NCBI GenBank assembly: GCA_019114885.1
Contig: DXEQ01000065.1
Location: 1 to 33,850 of the forward strand
Reading direction: 5' to 3'
DNA length: 33,850 nucleotides
DNA from: Candidatus Anaerobutyricum stercoripullorum
GTDB lineage: Bacteria > Bacillota > Clostridia > Lachnospirales > Lachnospiraceae
A program made the translations under genes and the position numbers. The notes beneath the pieces were generated by a model. The model searched no databases and had not been told where the DNA came from. It worked only from the letters and a program-made list of their open reading frames with translations. Of this stretch, positions 14,382 through 19,036 are shown one piece after another (position 1 is the first letter of the stretch; every line of letters starts with the position of its first letter).

Positions 14382-16132
14382 CACAAATGCAGCTGCCGGA
14401 GAAGTTTCTCAAGACGATGAAGCAGATTCTCGGAGAAGAATACGGAGCATTTCTTGAGAGCTTTGACGGAAAAAGACAATTTGGTCTGCGGGTGAATACA
14501 GCAAAGATGAAATTGGAGGAATTCGAAAGGATTGCTCCTTTTCATTTGAGCAAAATCCCGTGGATTGCAGACGGATATTTTTATGAGGAAGAAGACGCCC
14601 CGGCAAAGCATCCGTTTTACGCGGCGGGACTTTATTACCTCCAGGAACCCAGCGCCATGACCCCGGCTTCCCGGCTTTCGGTGACGCCCGGCGAGCGGGT
14701 GCTCGACCTCTGCGCGGCTCCCGGCGGCAAAGCGACGGCGCTTGGCGCGAAGCTGCAGGGCGAGGGGCTGCTGGTGGCCAACGACATCAATAACGCCCGG
14801 GCAAAGGCACTCCTTCGCAATCTGGAGCTGTTCGGCATTTCCAACGCCTTTGTCACCAACGAACCGCCCCACATCCTGGCGGAGCATTACCCGGAATACT
14901 TTGATAAGATCATGGTGGACGCTCCCTGCTCCGGCGAGGGAATGTTCCGAAAGAACCCGGCGGTCGTGGAAGCGTGGCAGGAGAAAGGGCCGGAATATTT
15001 TTCCCGCCTGCAGCGGGACATCATCCTCTATGCCGCGGATATGCTGCGGCCCGGCGGCCGGATGCTCTATTCCACCTGTACATTTTCCCCTCTGGAAAAT
15101 GAATCGGTCATCACCCATCTTCTCCGGGAACGGCCGGAGATGGAAGTGATTCCGATGGAAGACTACGAAGGTTTCGCAGAAGGACTTACGGCCTTTGGCG
15201 GCGAACAATTTCACGAAAGCTGCCGCCTCTGCCGCCGGATCTTCCCGCACAGGATGGCTGGCGAAGGACATTTTCTGGCGCTTCTTTATAAACACGCGCC
15301 GGACGAGAAGTCCAATCTGACGGCAAATGTATCGGCTCCTGCCGGCCTTTCCGTTCAGCCGGAAAATGTATCGGCCCCTGCCGGCCTTTCCGTTCAGCCG
15401 GAAAACGTATCGGCTCCAGCCGGCCTTTCCGATTTGCCGGAAAATGTACAGACGGCAGCCGGGATATCTTCCGGTAAAGATGCGGAGAAAAAATCCGGGA
15501 AAAGAAAAAAAGAAAAAAAGAAGAAAAAGCAATCTGCCGGCACAGACGGCAGCCGGAATTGGTGGGACACCTGTCCGGGGCTGGACCGGGAACAGCGGCA
15601 GGCGCTGGCAGATTTCTTTATCCATGTACATATGCCGCTTCAAAAAGAGCGGATCGACATCCGCGGGGACAAGGTCTATTATGTGCCGGCAGAGACATTG
15701 TTTAGTGATTCGCAGCTCAGGTCTGCCGCCTTTTCGGCCGGGGAAGAGCGGGCAGCCCGCACCCGATGGTCTGGCGCCGGGGGACGTTCGTCCGGAGGAA
15801 AAAGAAAGCAGCCGGGCACAATGCCGACTGCGAAGATACATTTTTTAAGAAACGGGTTGTATATGGGCGACCTGAAAAAGAAACGGTTTGAGCCATCGCA
15901 GCCGTTTGCGCTGGCCCTGTCAAAGGACGCCTTTGATCAGTGCCTGAACTTTGCCGACGGGGACGAGCGCCTCCAGCGCTATCTCCGGGGCGAGAGCATC
16001 CCTCTGGAAGGGGGAAACACCGCTTCGGGCGGCTGGTACCTCGTCCTGGCTGACGGCTGCCCGCTGGGCTTTGGCAAGCTTGCCGGACACATTTTAAAAA
16101 ATAAGTATCCGGCAGGCTGGCGCAGAAATTAG
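14378..16132 (+). CDS. rsmF: RsmB/RsmF-type 16S rRNA (cytosine-C5) methyltransferase
   Basis: VLDLCAAPGGKATALGAKL, DAPCSGEGMFRKNP, STCTFSPLENE motifs; C-terminal RsmF-like domain; 4-nt overlap with the CBS gene. Confidence 0.9.
   Translation: MTQMQLPEKFLKTMKQILGEEYGAFLESFDGKRQFGLRVNTAKMKLEEFERIAPFHLSKIPWIADGYFYEEEDAPAKHPFYAAGLYYLQEPSAMTPASRLSVTPGERVLDLCAAPGGKATALGAKLQGEGLLVANDINNARAKALLRNLELFGISNAFVTNEPPHILAEHYPEYFDKIMVDAPCSGEGMFRKNPAVVEAWQEKGPEYFSRLQRDIILYAADMLRPGGRMLYSTCTFSPLENESVITHLLRERPEMEVIPMEDYEGFAEGLTAFGGEQFHESCRLCRRIFPHRMAGEGHFLALLYKHAPDEKSNLTANVSAPAGLSVQPENVSAPAGLSVQPENVSAPAGLSDLPENVQTAAGISSGKDAEKKSGKRKKEKKKKKQSAGTDGSRNWWDTCPGLDREQRQALADFFIHVHMPLQKERIDIRGDKVYYVPAETLFSDSQLRSAAFSAGEERAARTRWSGAGGRSSGGKRKQPGTMPTAKIHFLRNGLYMGDLKKKRFEPSQPFALALSKDAFDQCLNFADGDERLQRYLRGESIPLEGGNTASGGWYLVLADGCPLGFGKLAGHILKNKYPAGWRRN
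15326..15481 (+). repeat. In-frame 39-bp (13 aa) tandem repeat within rsmF
   Basis: NVSAPAGLSVQPE x2, NVSAPAGLSDLPE, degenerate NVQTAAGISSGKD; units start at 15326, 15365, 15404, 15443. Confidence 0.9.
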
Positions 16133-16179: not shown

Positions 16180-18621
16180 TTATTTGATATCCATATCTTT
16201 CATCATCCGCTGTACCGTATCGCGAATCTGTTTTTTCAGGAAGATCTCCTGGAAGGATTCTTCATACGGCGGATAAGCGATGCCGAATTCGGTGACGATA
16301 CCGGTGATCAGATCGTGGCCCGTCACGTCAAAGGCAGGATTATATACTTTTACGCCGGGAGCGGTCATTGGCTTTTCATACCACATGTCAGTGACCTCTT
16401 CCGGTTTTCTCTGTTCAATGACAATGTCGTCTCCGGTGGCGGTGGACATGTCGATGGTGGACGTCGGCGCACACACATAGAACGGCACGCCGTAACGTTT
16501 CGCCGCCAGGGCGGCCATGGAAGTGCCAATCTTATTGGCGGTATCGCCGTTTTTTGCCACACGGTCACAACCCACAAACACAGCCTGAATCTTTCCTTCC
16601 CGCATGAGGGAGGCTGACATGTTGTCGCACAGAAGAGTCACGTCCAGACCGGCGCTGAATAGTTCAAAGCTGGTAAGTCTCGCACCCTGCAAAAGGGGTC
16701 TTGTCTCGTCACAATATACTTTAAAATGATAGCCCTTTTCCTGTCCCAGATACATCGGGGCGGTGGCGGTGCCGTATTTTACGGTGGCCAGCTGACCGGC
16801 GTTACAGTGGGTCAGGAGACCGTCGCCCGGTTTTACGAGAGAAAGACCGTACTTTCCGATGGACTGGCAGACCAGAATATCTTCCTCCCGGATGGCCAGA
16901 GCCTCGTCATGAAGGGCGGCCACGATCTGCGCCACGGAATCGCCCTTGTGGGCGAGCACCACATTTTCCATGCGCTGAAGCGCCCAGGAGAGATTAACTG
17001 CCGTCGGCCGGGACGAATTGAGGTAGGCGGAAGCCTCCCGGAAGCGGCGCAGGAATTCCTCGTAGTCGGTCACAGGCCGTCCTGCAGAAGCAGTCTGCCC
17101 GGTGGCCGTCTGTCCCGCCGAAGCTGCCTGCCCGGAAGCGTCGGCTGTACCCTCCGCGATCTCTCTGGCGGCCAGATAGATGCCGATGGCCGCCGCCACG
17201 CCGATGGCCGGGGCGCCCCGCACTTTCAGCAGATAGATGGCGTCCCAGATGTCCTCCTGCGCGGTGAGAGAAAGAATCTCAATGCGGGAAGGGAGCTTTG
17301 TCTGATCGATGATGACCAGCGCGTGCTGTTCATCGTCAAGAGCTACGGTATCATAATCAAGGATCGTCTTTTTCGGGCCGATGAGAGGATTGTCCGGTTC
17401 GATGGCGCGGATGGCGTCCTCCATGGCACGGTAATAATCGTTGGCTGTCTGGAACTGCCGCTGATGCAGAATCAGGTCTTTGGCGAAAGTGAGAAGAATC
17501 TTCTCCGCGGAGGCCCGCTTCGCCATATCTTCAATGACGGTGATGTCCTTGTTGTGGGCCATACCTACAATCCGGCGGATACATTCCGTGCCGGCGTACC
17601 CGGCGGTATCCGCCATAATGTCCGCCAGATAGGACTGTTTAAATTCTTCGGATCTGGCCAGAGGTTCCGTCACCTGCTCGTCGTAAAGACGGCAGAACTT
17701 CTCCTTAAACAGATCGACGATCTCCAGGATGGCGCACATACACCAGCCGCAGAAGCGGGCGCGCTCTGCCGGAGCGTCGATAGTGGCATTGCCGTTTGCC
17801 CATGCAAAGAAGAGGTTGGCGATCACATTTCCTATGTCATAACCCATAGGGCCGAAGAACGCGAACTCCGGATCGAACACAAAGGTGTGGTCTTTGTTGA
17901 TAAAGACGGAACCGGTGTGCAGATCTCCGTGAATCAGCGACTGGGCGTGGTTCATAAAACGGAACTTGAGCCGTGCCACCTCTGCCCGCAGTTCTTCATC
18001 GCCGTAGATCTCCCGCTCCACAAAATCTCTGACCGGCGGAAACACATCGTTCCTCCCGTTATAATCAAGAAGCGGCTCGCCGAAGACCAGATTCTCCGTG
18101 ATGTCGCAAAGCTCCGGATTGGTGAACTCCCGCACCAGCGCCTTCCTCTTCTGATGGTCCATGACGATATCGGTGGTCATCAGCAGACTGTTCACAAGAA
18201 ATGTACTGATCTGCTCAGGAAATTTCGGATAGATCTCATGGTGAATCAGCCCGGTGCGCATCATGGTGTGCCCGATCATATCTTCCATGATCATGGCGCA
18301 CATCACACCGTCGTACAGGTACACTTCCGGCACCAGGCCCGGACACAGCGCGCCCTGCAGCTTCAAAATACTGGCCTCGATCCGTCCCCGGTCTGTGGTC
18401 AGCGTCATTTTATCGGAAATCCGCAGATGCTCCCCCGCCTGCTTGACGATGATGGAGCGGCCGCTTCGTTCATCCCATACCCGGAAAACATAATTCAGAT
18501 TCCCATCGCCGATCTCCTTGCAGGCAAGCGGCGCGTCCGCGTCAAAATACGAAAGCTTCGCCTGCACGTAATCGATGACGTCCGGTTCTTTCATCAGAAA
18601 ATAAGTATTAAAATCAGACAA
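16180..18621 (-). CDS. Fused 5-methylthioribose kinase (MtnK) - methylthioribose-1-phosphate isomerase (MtnA)
   Basis: N-terminal kinase: CKEIGDGNLNYVFRV, SLIHGDLHTGSVFI, VFDPEFAFFGPMGYDIGN. C-terminal MtnA: LLKVRGAPAIGVAAAIG, LLTHCNAGQLATVKYGTA, VFVGCDRVAKNGDTANKIGT. Probable TTG start at 18621 after GGGGGAG; the longer track ORF runs into a repeat. Confidence 0.9.
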   Translation of the reverse strand: MSDFNTYFLMKEPDVIDYVQAKLSYFDADAPLACKEIGDGNLNYVFRVWDERSGRSIIVKQAGEHLRISDKMTLTTDRGRIEASILKLQGALCPGLVPEVYLYDGVMCAMIMEDMIGHTMMRTGLIHHEIYPKFPEQISTFLVNSLLMTTDIVMDHQKRKALVREFTNPELCDITENLVFGEPLLDYNGRNDVFPPVRDFVEREIYGDEELRAEVARLKFRFMNHAQSLIHGDLHTGSVFINKDHTFVFDPEFAFFGPMGYDIGNVIANLFFAWANGNATIDAPAERARFCGWCMCAILEIVDLFKEKFCRLYDEQVTEPLARSEEFKQSYLADIMADTAGYAGTECIRRIVGMAHNKDITVIEDMAKRASAEKILLTFAKDLILHQRQFQTANDYYRAMEDAIRAIEPDNPLIGPKKTILDYDTVALDDEQHALVIIDQTKLPSRIEILSLTAQEDIWDAIYLLKVRGAPAIGVAAAIGIYLAAREIAEGTADASGQAASAGQTATGQTASAGRPVTDYEEFLRRFREASAYLNSSRPTAVNLSWALQRMENVVLAHKGDSVAQIVAALHDEALAIREEDILVCQSIGKYGLSLVKPGDGLLTHCNAGQLATVKYGTATAPMYLGQEKGYHFKVYCDETRPLLQGARLTSFELFSAGLDVTLLCDNMSASLMREGKIQAVFVGCDRVAKNGDTANKIGTSMAALAAKRYGVPFYVCAPTSTIDMSTATGDDIVIEQRKPEEVTDMWYEKPMTAPGVKVYNPAFDVTGHDLITGIVTEFGIAYPPYEESFQEIFLKKQIRDTVQRMMKDMDIK

Positions 18622-18767
18622 AATCAATCTCCCCCTTTCCACAGGAAATGTAATTTCTCTCAGATGCCTTCTCCTTATCCCCGGTCCGCCTGCAGCCCGG
18701 AGAAATCTACACAAATAAACACATTTGCCGTTACTGTTTACACAGTGCCCGGCAATCATCTGTTATT

Positions 18768-18905
18768 ATGTTACTGTTCACTCGCCGAGCCACGCACTGG
18801 CTGCGTGGCTGCGGACCAATATGATTCAGCCGGCGATTTGGCCTTCGCGAAGCGAATTAGGATGCCAAATCGCATCGTTACTGGTCACTGTGTGAACAGT
18901 AACAT
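18768..18905. mobile_element. MITE-like palindromic element, 138 bp
   Basis: Perfect 14-bp TIR ATGTTACTGTTCAC (18768-18781)/GTGAACAGTAACAT (18892-18905); internal hairpins AGCCACGCA-ctggc-TGCGTGGCT (18788-18810) and GCGATTTGGC/GCCAAATCGC (18833-18873). Confidence 0.65.
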
Positions 18906-18937
18906 TATTATTATAAAATAGCTCCCCGCGAAAAACA

Positions 18938-18966
18938 ATGAAAAAACCGGTAGTCTGTAGTATAAT
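18938..18966 (+). promoter_or_regulatory. Putative promoter of the Mrr-like gene
   Basis: ATGAAA (18938)-N17-TATAAT (18961-18966); the start site would fall at about the first base of the repeat copy. Confidence 0.5.
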
Positions 18967-18974
18967 TAGTTGAT

Positions 18975-19036
18975 ATGTTACTGTTCACTCCCCGAGCCAC
19001 GCACTGGCTGCGTGGCTGCGGACCAACATGATACAG
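18975..19036. repeat. Half copy of the 138-bp MITE-like element
   Basis: 62 nt matching 18768-18829 at 59/62 positions; no right half. Confidence 0.9.

Follow-up and report, generated by a model that had tools for sequence, protein, structure and literature searches.

The window, the whole stretch of 33,850 nucleotides that was analysed, is contig C307 of an assembly of 2.33 Mb in 320 contigs (89.6% complete, 6.3% contaminated), evidently a metagenome bin. On the minus strand, positions 16180–18621 translate without interruption into 813 residues followed by a stop codon, and these coordinates are exact. The frame joins a methylthioribose kinase (MtnK) half to a methylthioribose-1-phosphate isomerase (MtnA) half. 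The features of the locus are listed below.

16180..18621, minus strand: mtnK-mtnA fusion gene, TTG start, 813 aa (open frame; both families above their curated cut-offs; 11 full-length homologues in the genus)
17407..18621, minus strand: MtnK half, residues 1–405 (TIGR01767, alignment to 2olc, residue table, fold match to 2pun/2olc)
17923–17925, minus strand: codon of D233 in the MtnK motif HGD (residues 231–233)
17872–17874, minus strand: codon of D250 in the MtnK motif DPE (residues 250–252)
17368..17406, minus strand: linker of about 13 residues, 406–418 (alignment of the fusion against separate genes)
16183..17367, minus strand: MtnA half, residues 419–813 (TIGR00512, alignment to 2yrf, residue table, fold match)
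16804–16806, minus strand: codon of MtnA C606
16564–16566, minus strand: codon of MtnA D686
17083..17142, minus strand: low-complexity insert in the MtnA half, residues 494–513 (alignment; pLDDT below 50 at 494–513)
18730..18905, no strand assigned: palindromic insert between promoter and start codon (inverted repeats, upstream alignment, predicted leader fold)
18910..18938, minus strand: likely promoter of the fusion gene, TTGTTT, 17 nt, TATAAT (pattern match, upstream alignment)

The TTG codon at 18621 has a ribosome-binding-like site (GGGGGAGA) just 5' of it, and its position matches the starts of the relatives in the alignment. A longer product of 859 aa could start at the ATG at 18759. 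This start is possible but improbable and TTG is preferred, because the 46 additional residues enter the palindromic insert, which is missing from the closest relatives. The promoter pattern was found in none of 100 shuffles and is conserved in G020, G009 and G022. The leader RNA is predicted to fold strongly (z −5.9) and the insert may affect expression of the fusion. A partial copy of the palindromic element lies at 18974–19036 in the window and two weaker copies are present elsewhere in the genome. No known RNA element was found in the window with Rfam. In another gene of the window, encoding an RsmF-like rRNA methyltransferase, a 39-bp tandem repeat (15311–15462) adds a repeated low-complexity stretch to the protein.

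In the domain search advised by an earlier note on this DNA, both halves exceed the curated NCBIfam cut-offs. The kinase half matches TIGR01767 with 415.6 bits (cut-off 275) over residues 10–398. The isomerase half matches TIGR00512 with 397.9 bits (cut-off 279), the best stretch being residues 516–782, and in phmmer searches against solved structures the MtnA match reaches N-terminally to residue 431. The best phmmer partners include the B. subtilis MtnK and MtnA structures. The kinase half keeps K60, HGD 231–233, DPE 250–252 and the paired arginines R349–R350, with numbering identical to that of the B. subtilis enzyme from K60 through both motifs. C606 and D686 of the isomerase half align with B. 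subtilis C160 and D240. We take these to be the catalytic residues of the two families. They are present in the window protein, each half retaining the residues expected of it, and in ten of the 11 other full-length fusions, the exception being G021.

The AlphaFold model comprises two confident domains (mean pLDDT 85), the mutual arrangement of which is left unfixed (pTM 0.62). With Foldseek, the predicted domains match MtnK 2pun (TMt 0.94) and MtnA 2yvk (TMt 0.92). The insert at residues 494–513 is found in the window's own clade and is predicted to be disordered. The fusion halves thus share fold and active-site residues with B. subtilis MtnK (2olc, 2pun) and MtnA (2yrf, 2yvk). Those enzymes, however, are separate proteins acting in full methionine salvage, whereas here they form one chain.

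A search of 145 related genomes revealed the full-length fusion in 11 congeners with 67–90% identity. The loci include those of the isolate Eubacterium sp. An11, Eubacteriaceae bacterium CHKCI004, Candidatus Anaerobutyricum avicola and several Lachnospiraceae bins, and the genus reads as Anaerobutyricum-like Lachnospiraceae. Compared with the nearest relatives, dN/dS is 0.05–0.08 in both halves; by this measure both are under strong purifying selection. The frameshift origin named in the earlier note, or another assembly artefact of a fragmented bin with 6.3% contamination, has a negligible probability and is rejected, since 11 genomes from separate assemblies, that of the isolate An11 among them, have the same uninterrupted full-length frame. 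The unbroken frame, these congeners and two intact active sites bear out the proposal that the 813-aa chain is a natural MtnK-MtnA fusion. Contig C99 of the same bin carries another, incomplete copy of the gene (L028:2-1564). It is 90% identical, groups with G020 in the MtnA tree (99/96) and probably belongs to a relative that contaminates the bin.

Two further genera (G047 and G095) have mtnK and mtnA as distinct genes with 9 and 21 bp between them, so that loss of a stop codon together with a short gap would explain the fusion. The position of the linker corresponds to the gap between the separate genes of G047. In the MtnA tree, fused and kinase-less congeners form a single clade (100/99). 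The kinase-less forms are nested in it, with G011, G013 and G016 beside the fused G003 (100/99). The simplest reading of this tree is a single fusion event in the genus, in which the stop codon separating neighbouring mtnK and mtnA genes disappeared, and subsequent loss of the kinase half at least two times.

Among 391 sampled Clostridia genomes no other MtnK-MtnA fusion was confirmed, and candidates read by hand are separate genes. The long open frames of G047, G095, G423 and G457 are separate adjacent genes, and MtnA stands alone in G254, G198 and G234. The candidate from G199 is actually a natural fusion of MtnP (MTA phosphorylase) to MtnA (L146:1706-3415, plus strand, 569 aa), both halves of which exceed the NCBIfam cut-offs. 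Judged by its domains, it would convert MTA to methylthioribulose-1-phosphate without a kinase.

A fusion of the same two enzymes, MTNAK, has been described in Tetrahymena thermophila (Salim et al. 2009) and also occurs in Ostreococcus, Micromonas and Phaeodactylum (PMC2759508). A 2018 review mentions only the Tetrahymena case (PMC6302742). The Tetrahymena protein (779 aa, MtnA N-terminal; PMC2759508) likewise carries MtnK and MtnA, two consecutive steps, in one chain. It is, however, eukaryotic and acts in methionine salvage together with MTNBD, whereas the present fusion is bacterial and occurs without MtnD. The Tetrahymena-type order is absent here, MtnK preceding MtnA. Because of this reversed order the two are best seen as independent, and the bacterial kinase-first fusion looks like one probably derived from an mtnK-mtnA operon. 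No paper on a bacterial MtnK-MtnA fusion was found in the open-licence library searched. The fusion as such (in eukaryotes) and the pathway are known; the bacterial version with the opposite order is real, conserved and probably independent. With a reverse-order bacterial fusion kept through a genus, the two steps have been joined on more than one occasion; this points, as we infer, to some benefit.

The earlier note had stated that the window holds no other salvage gene and had suggested, as one continuation beyond methylthioribulose-1-phosphate, an aldolase-based shunt. The first statement is confirmed by a Pfam scan, which detects none among the 20 neighbouring window proteins. A genome search for downstream salvage genes, which the note had called for, yielded a class II aldolase on contig C86; it also yielded a RuBisCO-like gene on contig C283, which by score is not MtnW. 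The genome furthermore encodes an MTA/SAH nucleosidase on contig C180, well above its cut-off, and contains two PF00596 (class II aldolase) proteins in all, neither above the MtnB cut-off. MtnD (acireductone dioxygenase) is absent from all 24 genomes of the genus; absences in the window's own genome alone are weak evidence because the bin is incomplete and contaminated.

Together, a nucleosidase, a kinase, an isomerase and a class II aldolase make up the gene set of the dihydroxyacetone phosphate (DHAP) shunt, or 5-deoxyribose disposal, and all four are encoded in this genome. The DHAP shunt of E. coli and others employs MtnK, MtnA and Ald2, plus Pfs (PMC10986504), and the same set is present here. 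There the kinase and isomerase are separate, whereas here they form one chain, and the aldolase of the window's species is encoded on a different contig. Over 213 residues, the C86 aldolase shares 61% identity with DrdA of B. thuringiensis. In the drdK-drdI-drdA cluster of that species (PMC6079011) the three genes are separate, in contrast to the fused kinase-isomerase; the aldolase adjoins the kinase-isomerase in congeners of the window's species. B. thuringiensis DrdK takes 5-deoxyribose and methylthioribose about equally (PMC6079011).

Five congeners (G001, G002, G010, G015 and G021) carry an aldolase gene immediately upstream of the fusion, at a distance of 2–190 bp. In G002 the contig ends after the first 122 residues of the fusion, so the linkage there is to the fusion start. 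In G004 and G012 the aldolase gene overlaps the start of an MtnA-only gene. No such linkage to the fusion is seen for the aldolase of the window's own clade. Linked and unlinked aldolases form two clades, the C86 protein belonging to the unlinked one, and the two types never occur together in one genome.

Most likely, with a probability of about 0.75, the protein is a bifunctional kinase-isomerase that feeds a DrdA-like aldolase. Free sugars would come from the MTA/SAH nucleosidase. The N-terminal half would phosphorylate 5-methylthioribose, and probably also 5-deoxyribose, at carbon 1 with ATP, and the C-terminal half would isomerise the product to methylthioribulose-1-phosphate or 5-deoxyribulose-1-phosphate. 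The C86 aldolase most likely splits this product into DHAP and an aldehyde, so that the sugar would serve as a source of carbon. The route would then be a DHAP shunt or 5-deoxyribose disposal rather than an oxygen-dependent return to methionine. What was computed directly is that the halves are fused and conserved, which active-site residues they keep, which genes the genomes encode and where the aldolase gene lies in congeners; we infer the activities, the substrate range and the aldolase step. Of the routes considered, the aldolase-based shunt is the likeliest continuation in view of the missing MtnD, the nucleosidase, the DrdA-like aldolase and the linked aldolases of five congeners. This pairing, in bacteria without the oxygen-dependent salvage enzyme, would place the fusion in the disposal of S-adenosylmethionine by-products.

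Alternatively, kinase and isomerase work as described, the C86 protein acts in sugar catabolism as a fuculose-phosphate aldolase, and another or unknown enzyme handles the MtnA product. The C86 protein is assigned to the NCBIfam L-fuculose-phosphate aldolase family and lacks linkage to the fusion. Its homologue in G008 (77% identical) is found beside sugar-kinase-like genes in a genome without MtnA. Its identity to FucA, however, is 52% (S. pneumoniae) and 36.5% (E. coli), compared with 61% to DrdA, and the mutual exclusion of linked and unlinked aldolases looks as if both did the same job. We consider this alternative unlikely.

The RuBisCO-like protein of C283 (L159:298-1647, minus strand) could instead divert the MtnA product into another shunt, for example an isoprenoid shunt. 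Such a gene is present in the same genome and in eight of the 24 genus genomes in total. Its distribution is patchy and does not track MtnA: it occurs in just three of the 11 intact-fusion genomes and also in G008, which has no MtnA. Its operon partners, an HAD phosphatase and two FAD enzymes resembling glycerol-3-phosphate dehydrogenase/oxidase, point elsewhere. The protein falls below the MtnW and OiaX cut-offs, and among solved structures its best matches are just generic RuBisCO-like proteins. A diversion of this kind is highly improbable.

A complete methionine salvage via MtnB, MtnW/MtnX or MtnC, and MtnD has hardly any probability. In B. subtilis this pathway begins with MtnK and MtnA, and on C283 an HAD phosphatase gene adjoins the RuBisCO-like gene. 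However, besides the lack of MtnD throughout the genus, the two class II aldolases of the genome score 87.5 and 76.3, far below the MtnB cut-off of 137.05. The RuBisCO-like protein scores 262 against an MtnW cut-off of 513.6. Given this score, a distribution unlike that of MtnA and the glycerol-3-phosphate-dehydrogenase-like operon, it was rejected as MtnW.

In other Clostridia, too, mtnK, mtnA and a class II aldolase gene are found linked. In G047 (L040:326-9181) and G095 (L041), mtnK and mtnA lie near genes for a class II aldolase and a CoA-acylating-type aldehyde dehydrogenase. The G047 locus also holds microcompartment shell genes and a PduL-like protein, which suggests that the aldehyde product is dealt with inside a microcompartment.

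Seven congeners have kept MtnA and lack the kinase half. In the G021 fusion (L009:1495-3903, minus strand) the HGD motif of the MtnK half is changed to HGA and DPE to NPE, and MtnA is intact. This kinase half is the most diverged of all (59% identity to the window protein versus 77% for the isomerase half) and, judged by its motifs, is a probable pseudokinase. The contig of its sister G019, 98% identical, ends before the two motifs. The channelling of methylthioribose-1-phosphate that the earlier note had taken the fusion to suggest is not borne out. It was rejected as a reading of the predicted model, in which the domain arrangement is unfixed at a pTM of 0.62. Moreover, sister species keep MtnA after the kinase has been lost or inactivated; coupling is thus not obligatory.

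A DeoD-type phosphorylase is encoded in seven of the nine genomes with a lost or inactivated kinase (the seven kinase-less ones, G021 and its sister G019) versus none of the 11 with an intact kinase half. The DeoD gene is mostly found directly beside the nucleosidase gene, and the two genomes of the nine without it are 76–82% complete. Fisher's test gives p = 4.6e-4 for these 20 genomes. They comprise 2–4 phylogenetically independent pairs, for which a sign test is not significant, and the association is therefore only a lead. A phosphorylase can replace nucleosidase and kinase, as proposed for Clostridium phytofermentans (PMC6079011). Tentatively, and with the odds somewhat against it, the genus may represent a natural series of kinase-step loss, with domain loss at least twice and a pseudokinase elsewhere, in which DeoD beside the nucleosidase, if it accepts 5'-deoxyadenosine or MTA, would make the sugar-1-phosphate directly and the kinase half would be dispensable or merely structural. 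Congeners whose kinase half is missing or inactive lend themselves to a comparison of channelling with mere co-expression. This comparison within the genus is the most interesting part of the analysis.

On contig C18 of the same genome (L027:1034-3574, plus strand), two tandem MtnK-like kinases match TIGR01767 with 249 and 256 bits, below the cut-off of 275. They adjoin genes for a EutS-like shell protein and a EutP-like GTPase, and similar paralogues are present in most congeners.
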